Shown one piece after another: positions 9,486-62,308 of a DNA stretch of 64,000 bases. A model generated the notes under the pieces. The model saw only the letters and a program-made list of their open reading frames with translations, was not told where the DNA came from and made no database searches. Each line of letters starts with the position of its first letter. Position 1 is the stretch's first letter. Source of the stretch: a virus; the IMG/VR virus record IMGVR_UViG_3300037193_002967, positions 1-64,000 of that record. One strand, given 5' to 3'. The position numbers were made by a program, and so were the translations under genes.

Positions 9486-9794
9486 ATGAATATTGGAGCA
9501 TCTATTAAAAAACTGAGAGGATATGCTGGTATTTCCCAAGTGGAATTAAGTAAAAAGGCCAAATTAGCCCAAGGTTATTTAAGTAATATAGAGAGGGGGA
9601 TGCAGAATCCTAGTTCTCAAGTTATCAAAAGGATTTCCAAGGTCCTTGATATACCACCAGGTTTGATTGTGGTTATGTCTATTGAAGACGAAGATGTGAA
9701 AATTGGAAAGAAAAGGCTCTTTAAAAAGTTAAAACCTGTGATGGAAGAAATAATTGCAGAAGCATTAATCCTACAATATGGCCGTAAAAATTAA
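9486..9794 (+). CDS. XRE-family transcription regulator
   Basis: A 102-residue protein. Residues 5-60 carry a helix-turn-helix of the Cro/cI (HTH_3) type, with the pattern GISQVELSKKAKLAQGYLS and IERGMQNPSS, followed by a short helical tail. The ATG lies only 6 bp after an ATATTTTATTTTG sequence that resembles a Bacteroidota -7 box, so the transcript may have a very short leader. It overlaps the next gene by 17 bp. It probably controls the lysis genes or a lysogeny decision; no target site is obvious. Confidence 0.85.
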   Translation: MNIGASIKKLRGYAGISQVELSKKAKLAQGYLSNIERGMQNPSSQVIKRISKVLDIPPGLIVVMSIEDEDVKIGKKRLFKKLKPVMEEIIAEALILQYGRKN

Positions 9795-11711: not shown

Positions 11712-11739
11712 GTCCATGTATTTCTATACATGGACTTTT
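11712..11739. terminator. Terminator between converging transcripts
   Basis: A perfect 9-bp stem GTCCATGTA / TACATGGAC with a 6-base loop and a short T-run on the plus side. It lies between the endolysin stop and the stop of the converging sigma factor gene and probably serves mainly the plus-strand transcript. Confidence 0.75.
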
Positions 11740-12235
11740 AATTATAAATAAAAACTCGGGCATATTTAAATTGCAATCTCTTTTTGATCCGGTGTACGCG
11801 AACCCGTAGATTATTTTCGTCAATATTTAATAGTGATTGTATCTTTTTAAAACTATATCCATTTAGATATAAGAAAAATATTTCTCGATCTTCATCTGGC
11901 AATTCTGCAATTACAGTATTATATCTAATGGCTTGCTCTAATTTTTCCGCCTCTTCCATACGGTACTCTAAATTATCAAGGAACTCTTCACTAAATGGGA
12001 TATAACGCTTTTGTACCTTCTGTCTTCGAACATGATCTATGCAGGTTCGTTTGCATACGGAAAAGAACCATTGGCTAAATAAGCCCCTACCATTGAACGT
12101 TGGGAAAGAGTGCCACGCCCTTAATAAAATTTCCTGAATGATATCCTCACGGCTCAATTTGTTGGCATAACGATAGCAAGCGTAATGCATGATCTCTTTA
12201 TTGGCCTCAATTCCCGCTATAAATTCAGCTTCCAT
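11738..12235 (-). CDS. Sigma-70 family (ECF-like) RNA polymerase sigma factor
   Basis: A 165-residue protein with region 2 (about residues 20-85, including LSREDIIQEILLRAWHSF and FSQWFFSVCKRTCIDHVRR) and region 4 (about 105-155, LPDEDREIFFLYLNGYSFKKIQSLLNI with a helix-turn-helix). This two-region layout is that of ECF sigma factors. It would redirect host RNA polymerase core to phage promoters, most likely late or middle genes (inference). No anti-sigma gene is recognised nearby. It is the last gene of a minus-strand unit that starts at the promoter near 13250. Confidence 0.85.
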   Translation of the reverse strand: MEAEFIAGIEANKEIMHYACYRYANKLSREDIIQEILLRAWHSFPTFNGRGLFSQWFFSVCKRTCIDHVRRQKVQKRYIPFSEEFLDNLEYRMEEAEKLEQAIRYNTVIAELPDEDREIFFLYLNGYSFKKIQSLLNIDENNLRVRVHRIKKRLQFKYARVFIYN

Positions 12236-13244: not shown

Positions 13245-13274
13245 CAAATATACATCTGTTTAATAATTAAACAA
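13245..13274 (-). promoter_or_regulatory. Promoter with embedded palindromic operator
   Basis: On the minus strand there is TTG (13274-13272), 19 bp, then TATATTTG (13252-13245), an exact fit to the Bacteroidota -33/-7 consensus. The spacer holds a perfect 15-bp palindrome GTTTAAT-A-ATTAAAC (13258-13272), which is well placed for a repressor. An FNR-like sequence TTGAT-CGAA-GTCAA lies upstream at 13312-13325, inside the end of the next gene. It should drive the small membrane peptides and the sigma factor. Confidence 0.7.
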
Positions 13275-13280
13275 GAATTT

Positions 13281-13490
13281 TTATAGCTTTTTTTTCCGCT
13301 CTTTCAATTCCTTGATCGAAGTCAAGTTTTTAACCAAGGTCATGCGTAATTCTGGTACATACCAAGAGTCAATTTGGCCTCGATTGATCCAGTTCCTTAC
13401 CGCTCCTGGCGTTACTTCCAGTTTATTAGCTAAATGCATCTGGCTAACCCACTCAGTAATATCAACTTGTTGTTTCAATTTTTTTGACAT
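13281..13490 (-). CDS. Helix-turn-helix DNA-binding protein
   Basis: A 69-residue basic protein. The ATG at 13490 is preferred over an upstream in-frame start because it begins MSKKLKQQVD and has a short overlap (29 bp) with the upstream gene. Residues 13-40 (WVSQMHLANKLEVTPGAVRN, then WINRGQID) form a helix-turn-helix like those of excisionase or MerR-type proteins that read a helper domain binding site. It sits just upstream of the palindromic promoter at 13245-13274 and is a natural candidate to bind it (inference). Confidence 0.7.
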   Translation of the reverse strand: MSKKLKQQVDITEWVSQMHLANKLEVTPGAVRNWINRGQIDSWYVPELRMTLVKNLTSIKELKERKKKL

Positions 13491-13746
13491 AAGGGTTATC
13501 TTCAAAAGGCATTTTATAGCGAAGAGCCATATATTCAAAATAGAAAGAACAAAAAAGCATTGCTTCTTCTGTACTTTTGCATAAAGCGGCTATTAAAGCG
13601 AATACATCTATTTTTGGGATAGAGGGAATTGACCTTTGGATAACTTCCAGGTCACCAGCAAAAGACTTTAAAGCGGCCACTCTATCTGGTGGGATGCCTA
13701 ATTGGGCTGCAACATCTTTCCCTTCTTTAATTATCGTTATTTTCAT
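13462..13746 (-). CDS. Hypothetical protein
   Basis: A 94-residue protein with a basic N-terminus and a helical core containing Cys and Phe (MLFCSFYFEYMAL). It overlaps the genes on both sides. It belongs to the early minus-strand transcript; its function is unknown. Confidence 0.6.
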   Translation of the reverse strand: MKITIIKEGKDVAAQLGIPPDRVAALKSFAGDLEVIQRSIPSIPKIDVFALIAALCKSTEEAMLFCSFYFEYMALRYKMPFEDNPYVKKIETTS

Positions 13747-25344: not shown

Positions 25345-25384
25345 GATTTTTTAAATTTACTTAATTAAGATATTTTATTTTGTT

Positions 25385-36497: not shown

Positions 36498-36544
36498 ATT
36501 GGGATTGCTTCGAATATGAACCATTTCGTGAGTTTTTGCGTGCA

Positions 36545-36574
36545 GGGCTGTCCGGGGAGGGACAGCCCTTTTTT
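36545..36574 (+). terminator. Terminator after the terminase operon
   Basis: A 9-bp stem GGGCTGTCC/GGACAGCCC with a 6-base loop and a T6 run. The next promoter starts directly after it. Confidence 0.9.
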
Positions 36575-36575
36575 A

Positions 36576-36645
36576 TTGATCGTGGTCAATAACTTACGCA
36601 GTATGACAAAAAGATTTGTCATTGTCGTTTTTGTGCGTATCTTTG
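36576..36645 (+). promoter_or_regulatory. Two-part operator promoter A
   Basis: TTGATCGTGGTCAA (36576-36589), 14 bp, TGACAAA-AAGA-TTTGTCA (36604-36621). Its TTTG serves as the -33 box, followed by 19 bp and TATCTTTG (36638-36645), an exact -7 box. It would drive the 36665-36949 gene. Confidence 0.8.
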
Positions 36646-36664: not shown

Positions 36665-36949
36665 ATGAAAAATAGAGCTAAAAAGGGTGGTGAAATAGGA
36701 ATGAACGGGGAATTTTATAAAGGCGGATTATTTTTACCATCAACCCAATTGCCAAAGCAATCACCTATCAAAATCCATAACACAACCACCAAAAAGCCTA
36801 TGGCAGATTGGCAAATTAAGAATCTTGAACGTGCCATTGAGGGTACTAAAAAGGCTCTTCATGCCGCAATTGAAAGAAATGATAAACTGGCTATTGAGGG
36901 CAATACTGCTCAATTAGAAAGATATATGAAAATGCTAAATCAACAATAA
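36665..36949 (+). CDS. Small protein under promoter A
   Basis: A 94-residue basic protein; the second half is a coiled-coil-like helix. Followed by a terminator. Function unknown; regulated by the two-part operator promoter. Confidence 0.55.
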   Translation: MKNRAKKGGEIGMNGEFYKGGLFLPSTQLPKQSPIKIHNTTTKKPMADWQIKNLERAIEGTKKALHAAIERNDKLAIEGNTAQLERYMKMLNQQ

Positions 36950-36975: not shown

Positions 36976-37004
36976 GGCCGCAGGTTTCGCCCTGTGGCCT
37001 TTTT
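36976..37004 (+). terminator. Terminator
   Basis: Stem GGCCGCAGG/CCTGTGGCC (one G-T pair), 6-base loop, T5 run. Confidence 0.8.
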
Positions 37005-37005
37005 G

Positions 37006-37076
37006 TTGACCTGAGTCAAGATATTCTATTTATTGACAAATATATTTGTCATTTCAAAAGCGCCTACCTATCTTTG
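37006..37076 (+). promoter_or_regulatory. Two-part operator promoter B
   Basis: TTGACCTGAGTCAA (37006-37019), 14 bp, TGACAAA-TATA-TTTGTCA (37034-37051), then 20 bp and TATCTTTG (37069-37076). The same architecture as promoter A, upstream of the gene at 37097. Confidence 0.8.
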
Positions 37077-37096: not shown

Positions 37097-37357
37097 ATGA
37101 AACACTTCATTTCTTACAGCGCGATCTCAAATTCAGGTACTACAATACCAGATGAATTTTTTTGGAATGGGAAAGAGTTCTGTGTAAACTACAAAGAGAC
37201 CTATCCGATAGTATTTTTTAGCGATGAAGAGGTGGAAGAGGAAGCTTCCAAGGCTATGCAACATTTGGAAGACGCGGGTTTGGAACACCTATATCAAGAA
37301 CCTCAATTCAGCTTCGGTATTAAGCTGGAAAGTGAATGGGCCGTTTGTGATAAATAG
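37097..37357 (+). CDS. Small protein under promoter B
   Basis: An 86-residue acidic protein starting MKHFISYSAISNSG. The start at 37097 places the promoter fully upstream. Unknown function. Confidence 0.55.
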   Translation: MKHFISYSAISNSGTTIPDEFFWNGKEFCVNYKETYPIVFFSDEEVEEEASKAMQHLEDAGLEHLYQEPQFSFGIKLESEWAVCDK

Positions 37358-37370
37358 TTAATTAACTTTT

Positions 37371-37395
37371 GGCTAGGGTAAAACCTGGCCTTTTT
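37371..37395 (+). terminator. Terminator
   Basis: Stem GGCTAGG/CCTGGCC (one G-T pair) with a T5 run. Confidence 0.7.
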
Positions 37396-60628: not shown

Positions 60629-61501
60629 TTAATTAACCATTTCTAAAATGGTATTGAATATTTTTTTGTCGGCCCTCTCTTTTTCAAAGAATGGCTTGCT
60701 TTCAACACCGTGAATATACTCATTGAAAGCATTATAACCAAGCCATAAATTGGGGGTTGCGCCCAATTGGCCAGCTTCTTTTTGGATGGTATCAATGATC
60801 TGTTGGGCGATTTTAGAAGGCTCATCCGGGTTCTTTTCGCTTTTTTCGTACTTCGCCAGACCGGTCTTGCCTAGAACATATTTCACGAATTCATTGATAT
60901 CTGGTACTACGCCTTCTGCCAGCACATTGAACTTTTTTTGAATGGTGTAATACTCGTTATCCATGAATTGCGCAATAAGCTCTTCGATCTTCGGCATAAT
61001 GATTTCCATGGTGTTAGCGCCGCGTTTACGAAGGCTAAATCCAATTTTCATATGAGCCACATGTAGACCGTTCTCGCATATTTTGCGAAAGCCCGAGAAG
61101 CCGCCCACAGTACGAACGCTACCGTCATATGAATTAATAGCGGTTAGCATGGGTTTGATAGTATCAACACCCTTGGCGTTTTTGAACTTATCGCCAATGT
61201 TTACATGGTAGGCATCGTCTTCCAGGATGTAGTCTACCTTGAAGTTTTGATTGCGGTAGTTGCTGGCGCGCTTGCTGTATTGAATACCAGCATTATCCAG
61301 TAACGTCTCAAACTGACCGAAGAATTGCTCATTCGGAATGAGATTATAGCCATTGCTTACCAGGTTGACAATCTCGCCATCAGCAATAATAAATTTATCA
61401 AAACCGGGGCGCATTTTAAATCCGGTGATCATTGAAGCGTCCGCTTCTGTAACGGGGATGTAGATGTTGTCGTTTCTTTTGTAGGATTGTTGTGTGTTCA
61501 T
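60629..61501 (-). CDS. DUF932 family protein
   Basis: A 290-residue protein. VGGFSGFRKICENGLHVAH with the ICENG core and NLWLGYNAFNEYIHGV fit the DUF932 phage/plasmid-like family (function unknown). It lies under an operator of the TGACAAA-N4-TTTGTCA type. Confidence 0.75.
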   Translation of the reverse strand: MNTQQSYKRNDNIYIPVTEADASMITGFKMRPGFDKFIIADGEIVNLVSNGYNLIPNEQFFGQFETLLDNAGIQYSKRASNYRNQNFKVDYILEDDAYHVNIGDKFKNAKGVDTIKPMLTAINSYDGSVRTVGGFSGFRKICENGLHVAHMKIGFSLRKRGANTMEIIMPKIEELIAQFMDNEYYTIQKKFNVLAEGVVPDINEFVKYVLGKTGLAKYEKSEKNPDEPSKIAQQIIDTIQKEAGQLGATPNLWLGYNAFNEYIHGVESKPFFEKERADKKIFNTILEMVN

Positions 61502-61520: not shown

Positions 61521-61562
61521 TGAAGTTAATTTGGTTTTTTGAATTGACAAAATATTTTGTCA
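61521..61562 (-). promoter_or_regulatory. Promoter D with single operator
   Basis: TGACAAA-ATAT-TTTGTCA (61545-61562). On the minus strand TTTG, 19 bp, TAACTTCA (61528-61521), a weak -7 box. The second palindrome is missing. Confidence 0.6.
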
Positions 61563-61778
61563 ATTATTTTTTTCTGGGACCAATTTATTTAATCTTTCTA
61601 GTAGGTCGGCCCTGATGCTGTTAGTAGCTATCCAAACCTCCCCATTAAAATAAACGGAATTACATGGTGAAAAATCCTTTTCTGCCCTTAGGCATTGCTC
61701 AGTAATATAGCCTTCAGTGCTGCCCATCAATTTACCCCAAGCATAAATGTAAGGGTATTTTAAAAATATTTGTTTCAT
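61560..61778 (-). CDS. Small protein from the divergent promoter
   Basis: A 72-residue protein; its end overlaps the operator of promoter D. Driven by the minus-strand arm of the 61811-61937 control region. Unknown. Confidence 0.5.
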   Translation of the reverse strand: MKQIFLKYPYIYAWGKLMGSTEGYITEQCLRAEKDFSPCNSVYFNGEVWIATNSIRADLLERLNKLVPEKNN

Positions 61779-61810: not shown

Positions 61811-61937
61811 TAAAGATATTGGGTTTTATTTAATTGACAAATATATTTGTCTTATATTCGCCGATCTTGATCATGATCAATTAAGTCGGTAATTATGACA
61901 AAATAATTTGTCATTTCGAACCCTGATAGTATATTTG
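61811..61937. promoter_or_regulatory. Divergent two-part operator promoters C and C'
   Basis: A central TTGATCATGATCAA (61867-61880) serves both directions. Plus: 15 bp, TGACAAA-ATAA-TTTGTCA (61896-61913), 19 bp, TATATTTG (61930-61937). Minus: 14 bp, TGACAAATATATTTGTCt (61835-61852), 19 bp, TATCTTTA (61818-61811). Symmetric and the best example of the design. Confidence 0.85.
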
Positions 61938-61960: not shown

Positions 61961-62308
61961 ATGGAACTTAATATAAAACAGCTTAAAAAATGGATTGCCG
62001 CTTTAGATAGCGGGGAATATAAGCAATCAATTGGAAGATTGCAGGGGCCAAATGGGTATTGTTGTCTTGGGGTTGCTACCAAATGCTTAGTGCCATTAAG
62101 CCAGATTGAAATAGATCATGAGGGTTACCTTATAGGCACCGTTCCTTTTGATCAAAAATCGGCTCCAAAATGGTTAAAGGAAATAAGTCTTGATTTCAAT
62201 AAACAAACTGGGTATCATTTAACATCATTAAATGATGTATATGGATATAGTTTTACCGAAATCGCCACGCTATTGGAATTAATATACATCCATAAAATCC
62301 TTGATTAA
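61961..62308 (+). CDS. Conserved phage protein
   Basis: A 115-residue protein with CCLGVATKCLVPL, a pattern found in many phage proteins of unknown function. First gene of the plus-strand unit of promoter C. Confidence 0.6.
   Translation: MELNIKQLKKWIAALDSGEYKQSIGRLQGPNGYCCLGVATKCLVPLSQIEIDHEGYLIGTVPFDQKSAPKWLKEISLDFNKQTGYHLTSLNDVYGYSFTEIATLLELIYIHKILD

Follow-up and report, generated by a model that had tools for sequence, protein, structure and literature searches.

The divergent promoter region at positions 61,811–61,937 of the analysed DNA would, as we read it, be a phage promoter with two inputs, arranged back to back. Its upstream switch, a palindrome common to several viruses, is probably read by a host protein, while the second switch, a virus-specific dyad, is probably a repressor site. 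In its most specific form, to which we give a probability of about one half, this reading places a host CRP/FNR-family activator at the common palindrome and a phage HTH repressor over the -33 region. The analysed DNA, below called the window, covers the first 64 kb of a virus record of 72,173 bp, which is circular or circularly permuted because its last ~130 bases or more (L002) repeat the window start. We infer a Bacteroidota host for the window phage from the promoter consensus (PMC7366714) and from DUF932 relatives in Flavobacterium phages. With TerL and DUF932 as queries, no relatives were found among the viral contigs, and no integrase was identified among the window-phage proteins examined.

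Architecture of the divergent promoter C

The centre of the region, promoter pair C, is the palindrome TTGATCATGATCAA (61867–61880), which is common to both directions and is a probable activator site. In the plus direction (C+) it is followed after 15 bp by the operator TGACAAAATAATTTGTCA (61896–61913), which holds the -33 TTTG at 61907–61910, and by the -7 box TATATTTG (61930–61937). In the minus direction (C-) the gap is 14 bp, the operator AGACAAATATATTTGTCA (61835–61852) is one position off the TGACAAA-N4-TTTGTCA consensus and holds its TTTG at 61841–61838, and the -7 box is TATCTTTA (61811–61818). Both -7 boxes lie 19 bp past the operator-internal TTTG, and the distance from the palindrome centre (61873.5) to the start of the box is 56.5 bp (plus) and 55.5 bp (minus). 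An earlier note on this DNA had described a perfect palindrome placed 14 and 15 bp from two TGACAAA-N4-TTTGTC(A) sites, with -7 boxes 19 bp beyond each site, and all of these bases were found at their places on both strands. Its statement that the centre-to-box distances equal those of promoters A and B likewise agrees with our measurements (A, 55.5 bp; B, 56.5 bp). The first gene of C+ encodes 115 aa (61961–62308, plus strand; phrog_18067, unknown) and that of C- 72 aa without a family (61560–61778, minus strand); C is predicted to drive two divergent sets of small genes.

Further copies of the module in the window

Altogether, the window holds four promoters of the Bacteroidota type TTTG-N19/20-TATMTTTR, namely A, B, C+ and C-. 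They share one layout, in which a 14-bp TTGAYC-NN-GRTCAA palindrome is followed after 14–15 bp by an 18-bp TGACAAA-N4-TTTGTCA dyad and after another 19–20 bp by the -7 box, so that the palindrome stands 48–49 bp before the box. The looser dyad TTGAY-N4-RTCAA is likewise present at A, B and C. The 18-bp dyad overlaps each promoter and contains its -33 TTTG. The -7 boxes are TATCTTTG, TATATTTG or TATCTTTA; TTTG followed after 19–20 bp by TANNTTTG is exact in A, B and C+ and has one mismatch in C-. Back-to-back use at C is one use of the module, which is unidirectional elsewhere.

Promoter A consists of the palindrome TTGATCGTGGTCAA (36576–36589), the operator TGACAAAAAGATTTGTCA (36604–36621) and the -7 box TATCTTTG (36638–36645), and precedes gene A (36665–36949; 94 aa, no family). 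Promoter B consists of TTGACCTGAGTCAA (37006–37019), which departs once from TTGAYC-NN-GRTCAA, the operator TGACAAATATATTTGTCA (37034–37051) and the same -7 box (37069–37076), and precedes gene B (37097–37357; no family), whose start is probably the ATG at 37097. All of these lie on the plus strand, as do three intrinsic terminators, one closing the terminase gene directly before A (36544–36569), one between the cassettes (36976–36999) and one closing cassette B (37371–37390). Because terminators flank them on both sides, genes A and B are, by their arrangement, predicted to be independent moron-like cassettes. A reading of the palindrome as a Dam methylation site (GATC) was ruled out, as B carries GACC/AGTC.

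A fifth operator, D (TGACAAAATATTTTGTCA, 61545–61562, minus strand), absent from the list in the earlier note, stands ahead of the gene for a DUF932 protein (60629–61501, minus strand). It has a weak -7 box, TAACTTCA at 61528–61521, and no upstream palindrome. Separately, at 13252–13325 on the minus strand, TTGACTTCGATCAA precedes TATATTTG by 59 bp (48+11), and TGTTTAATTATTAAACA lies in between; this arrangement coincides with the 3' end of an HTH gene (13281–13538) and is a possible fifth promoter of the set.

Shuffling the window 200 times gave a mean of 0.03 strand-hits for operators with at most one mismatch, as compared with 10 strand-hits (five sites) observed. The palindrome with an exact -7 box at 46–52 bp occurred three times in the window (shuffle mean 0.005, maximum 1). 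It is very unlikely that the geometry of the window arose by chance.

The upstream palindrome recurs in other phages

Viral contigs were scanned for the palindrome 24–30 bp before TTTG-N18–20-TANNTTTG, which yielded three further phage promoters (L048, L051 and L052). A second scan, in which the gap before TATCTTTG was left free between 36 and 62 bp, added L069, L078 (two promoters) and L056, and integrase relatives added L110 and L111. The palindrome thus stands 48–50 bp before a -7 box in eight further phage records, and TTGA/TCAA is kept at 14 of 14 phage sites. Beyond L048, a scan with TATATTTG turned up no new phage. Of 15 palindrome-TATNTTTG pairs in ten phage records, 12 had gaps of 48–50, where 65 gaps were possible; this figure is to be read with the fact that the pattern used to retrieve the contigs was the same, only without a fixed gap. 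A permuted palindrome gave no pairs in these records. Most of the remaining free-gap matches were protein-coding repeats of a few genes, and five of the eight matches without a covering long ORF (counted by hand) lay at 48–49 bp.

The full two-site pattern was found in none of the viral contigs and gave five matches in genome contigs. One of these, in Terrimonas (L006), was rejected, being actually the ccoS promoter with a -7 box that mimics half of an operator. Among named phages only Pan5 carries the cassette, and only in part. The TGACAAA operator is missing from Pan5, a TerL relative, and from Flavobacterium phage 6H with its DUF932 relatives. We also observed a start region of about ATTYATCAA after the -7 box in most of L048, L051, L052, L056, L069, L078, L110, Pan5 and window promoters B and C-.

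The second dyad is exchanged between phages

For each promoter, the stretch from the upstream site to the -7 box was searched for its best palindrome, with the fraction of shuffles as a measure of significance. A second dyad centred 25 bp before the -7 box (26 bp in B) was found in the window promoters, both promoters of L078, L069, L056 and the first promoter of Pan5, with shuffle fractions of 0 to 0.02 except for window promoter A (0.088). It has four different sequences, namely the TGACAAA type in the window, ATGAAATATATTTCAT in L078 and L069, ATGCAATATCTTGCAT in Pan5 and ATTGTTCAAAATATTGCACAAT in L056. No significant second dyad was found in L110, L052, L048 and L111, and in L051 the best dyad lies elsewhere, 13.5 bp away. 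In Pan5, the second palindrome is present and the upstream sequence is different. The two elements are therefore separable, the first recurring in unrelated phages and the second being exchanged.

The early promoters of the temperate phages L078, L069 and L056 (IMG/VR contigs) are among the closest parallels, with the same upstream palindrome, spacing and place of the second dyad. In contrast to the window promoters, they have a different second dyad and lie near recombinase, HTH1 and XRE genes. L078 and L069 have one dyad in common, and although their small XRE proteins are 52% identical overall, both carry the recognition-helix stretch ATINKIEAG. This suggests that in each cassette the second dyad is read by the XRE protein.

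Pan5 (L008, a Pseudanabaena phage) has two promoters, at 25361 and ~26400, each with a TATCTTTG box and a dyad in almost the same position. They share a preceding ACCCARAAACCATGA element, and Pan5 proteins have matches among those of the module phages; its cyanobacterial host may have been recorded wrongly. A further scan of the viral contigs for the TGACAAA dyad with a -7 box gave mostly coding matches. The sole intergenic pair was in the Mu-like phage L040 (6358–7652), where TGACAAAATATTTTGTCA precedes two genes, has its centre 25 bp from a TAATTTTG box and lacks an upstream palindrome. The CI gene of L040 gave no clear match to the HTH_3 protein of the window.

Candidate readers of the two elements

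The sole HTH_3 (Cro/CI-type) protein of the record, of 102 aa (9486–9794, plus strand), is the candidate operator-binding repressor. The arrangement resembles the Cro/CI-type systems of lambda and 434 in that one HTH_3 protein goes with several identical dyads overlapping core promoters, here five sites, and the dyad core ACAA-N6-TTGT resembles the 434 operator. It differs in that the sites control accessory cassettes and that no operator lies beside the candidate gene, which adjoins the lysis genes and has no site with two or fewer mismatches nearby.

For the upstream palindrome, a host CRP/FNR-family activator is preferred because host genomes use such sites, because the phages lack a CRP/FNR protein and because the module phages do not all share any one protein family. 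A cNMP-binding (CRP/FNR, PF00027) protein was absent from nine phage records, while the control was positive in 11 of 14 genomes. The co-located HTH1 family was rejected as the palindrome binder, being absent from the window record (G000), G779 and G780, which all carry the module; in chromosomes the module lay near HTH1 in only one of 30 loci. The presence of HTH1 in Chitinophagaceae indicates that the other module phages, too, probably have Bacteroidota hosts.

Plausible hosts carry CRP/FNR proteins and similar sites. Paired TGAYN4RTCA boxes precede ccoS/ccoN in most of 27 Chitinophagaceae regions (from L010–L039), the proximal box lying ~22 bp before the -7 box, a class II position. In most of these regions, tandem FNR-like boxes 22 bp apart were seen upstream of the cbb3 oxidase operon. 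Of four host matches to the strict palindrome, three have a gap of 22; they come from three Chitinophagaceae genomes, and in two of these the match falls where a Crp/Fnr gene has its 3' end. Searches for the strict palindrome with a promoter at phage spacing gave no match in 394 Chitinophagaceae genomes or, with TATCTTTG, in 395 phylum-wide genomes, and the class I-like gaps of 37–39 and 60–62 gave few host matches.

The phage sites resemble CRP/FNR-family sites in having a 14-bp dyad with TTGAY half-sites and perhaps in its fixed distance upstream of a core promoter, and plausible hosts have TGAYN4RTCA and TTGACCTAGGTCAA at class II distance. In contrast to them, the inner C/G of the phage palindrome is nearly fixed, the site lies ~56 bp from the -7 box and its reader protein is only putative. 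The description of the palindrome as FNR-like in the earlier note holds, as far as the sequences go, for the half-site (TTGAY), with backing from the host cco promoters and the host class II position. It does not extend to the distance, since E. coli CRP class I distances are 49.5 or 60.5 bp, from which the phage 55.5–56.5 bp differs, nor to the phage records, which contain no CRP/FNR protein. The phage gap of 48–50 bp is constrained, yet it matches no canonical class I spacing.

In three Chitinophagaceae chromosomes (L122, L124 and L129), the -7 box lies 60–62 bp downstream of a TTGATC..GATCAA-type palindrome and is directly followed by a conserved short transcript-like sequence, TTTTTCATAGGATAAGGTTTAATGGTTAATGGTATTTGATTAGTGCA, and a terminator-like hairpin. 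This sequence has no Rfam match and, by analogy with FnrS, may represent a small RNA that a Crp/Fnr-type regulator controls.

Alternative explanations

The palindrome could instead be bound by a phage-encoded activator unrecognised by sequence, so that both switches would be phage-made and no host signal involved. The strict spacing between palindrome and promoter, seen in phages and in neither the 394 family nor the 395 phylum genomes, speaks for this, as does the inner C/G, conserved in phages and not seen in the host cco boxes. However, the phages with the element have no protein family that all of them share, three of them lack HTH1, the leading co-located candidate, none of the phage records has a CRP/FNR protein, and host genomes use the palindrome at the class II position; we consider this explanation doubtful. 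Also to be weighed is a single protein that occupies both dyads cooperatively, or an activator at the TGACAAA site, leaving the palindrome without a separate factor. The dyad centres are 30–31 bp apart in all four promoters, about three helical turns, which speaks for this, but the dyads are unlike in sequence, vary independently among phages, and D has the TGACAAA site without the palindrome, which makes this highly improbable.

The phage also encodes an ECF-type sigma factor (11738–12235, minus strand; Sigma70_r2 and r4_2, phrog_1740), and its five TGACAAA sites are nearly identical, so they could be the -35 part of promoters read by this factor and not repressor operators. We regard this as unlikely, since the sites are dyads whereas sigma elements are expected to be asymmetric, the -7 boxes match the housekeeping consensus (PMC7366714), and other phages keep the -7 box and the geometry under different dyads. 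That we are looking at ordinary phage promoters with accidental palindromes is hardly credible: some other viral matches of the scan are indeed coding sequence with arbitrary spacing, but the shuffles, the permuted palindrome and the recurrence in unrelated phages all disfavour chance palindromes.

Proposed mechanism and implications

Bacteroidota housekeeping (sigma-ABfr) promoters have TAnnTTTG at -7 and TTTG at -33 (PMC7366714), whereas in the window the -33 element is embedded in an operator and an activator-like site is added upstream. According to the preferred reading, the host activator plus the phage repressor, the housekeeping polymerase would recognise TTTG-N19/20-TANNTTTG, as the consensus indicates. 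A dimer of the host CRP/FNR-family protein on TTGAYC-NN-GRTCAA, ~56 bp upstream of the -7 box, would activate transcription, and at C one dimer would serve both directions. The phage HTH repressor, for which the 102-aa HTH_3 protein is the best candidate, would sit on TGACAAA-N4-TTTGTCA, centred 25 bp upstream of the -7 box, cover the -33 element and block the polymerase at all five sites together. The genes so controlled would form small accessory cassettes, two of which end in terminators of their own, and the phage would release them at low levels of its repressor, provided that the host activator is in its active state. The earlier note had concluded from the symmetric constraint that a functional protein pair is at work. 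The spacing is indeed constrained and points to two different DNA-binding proteins, but rather than two proteins of one system, one host activator and one phage repressor are likelier.

Tentatively, the module may have a wider role, which we hold to be possible rather than probable: unrelated Bacteroidota phages would plug early or accessory promoters into an FNR-type regulator of the host for oxygen or nitrosative stress through the common site, with their own repressor dyad at a fixed -33 socket, as an exchangeable two-input cassette. No description of such a module was found in the literature searched, mostly outside subscription journals, and gene control in Bacteroidota phages is little described there. 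A constant site with an exchangeable dyad at fixed distances predicts, from sequence, which phages share a host-read input and which repressors pair with which operators. Promoters with two switches suggest a way for such viruses to couple their gene expression to the host's state; should the host protein prove to be an FNR-type sensor, this coupling would be to respiration.
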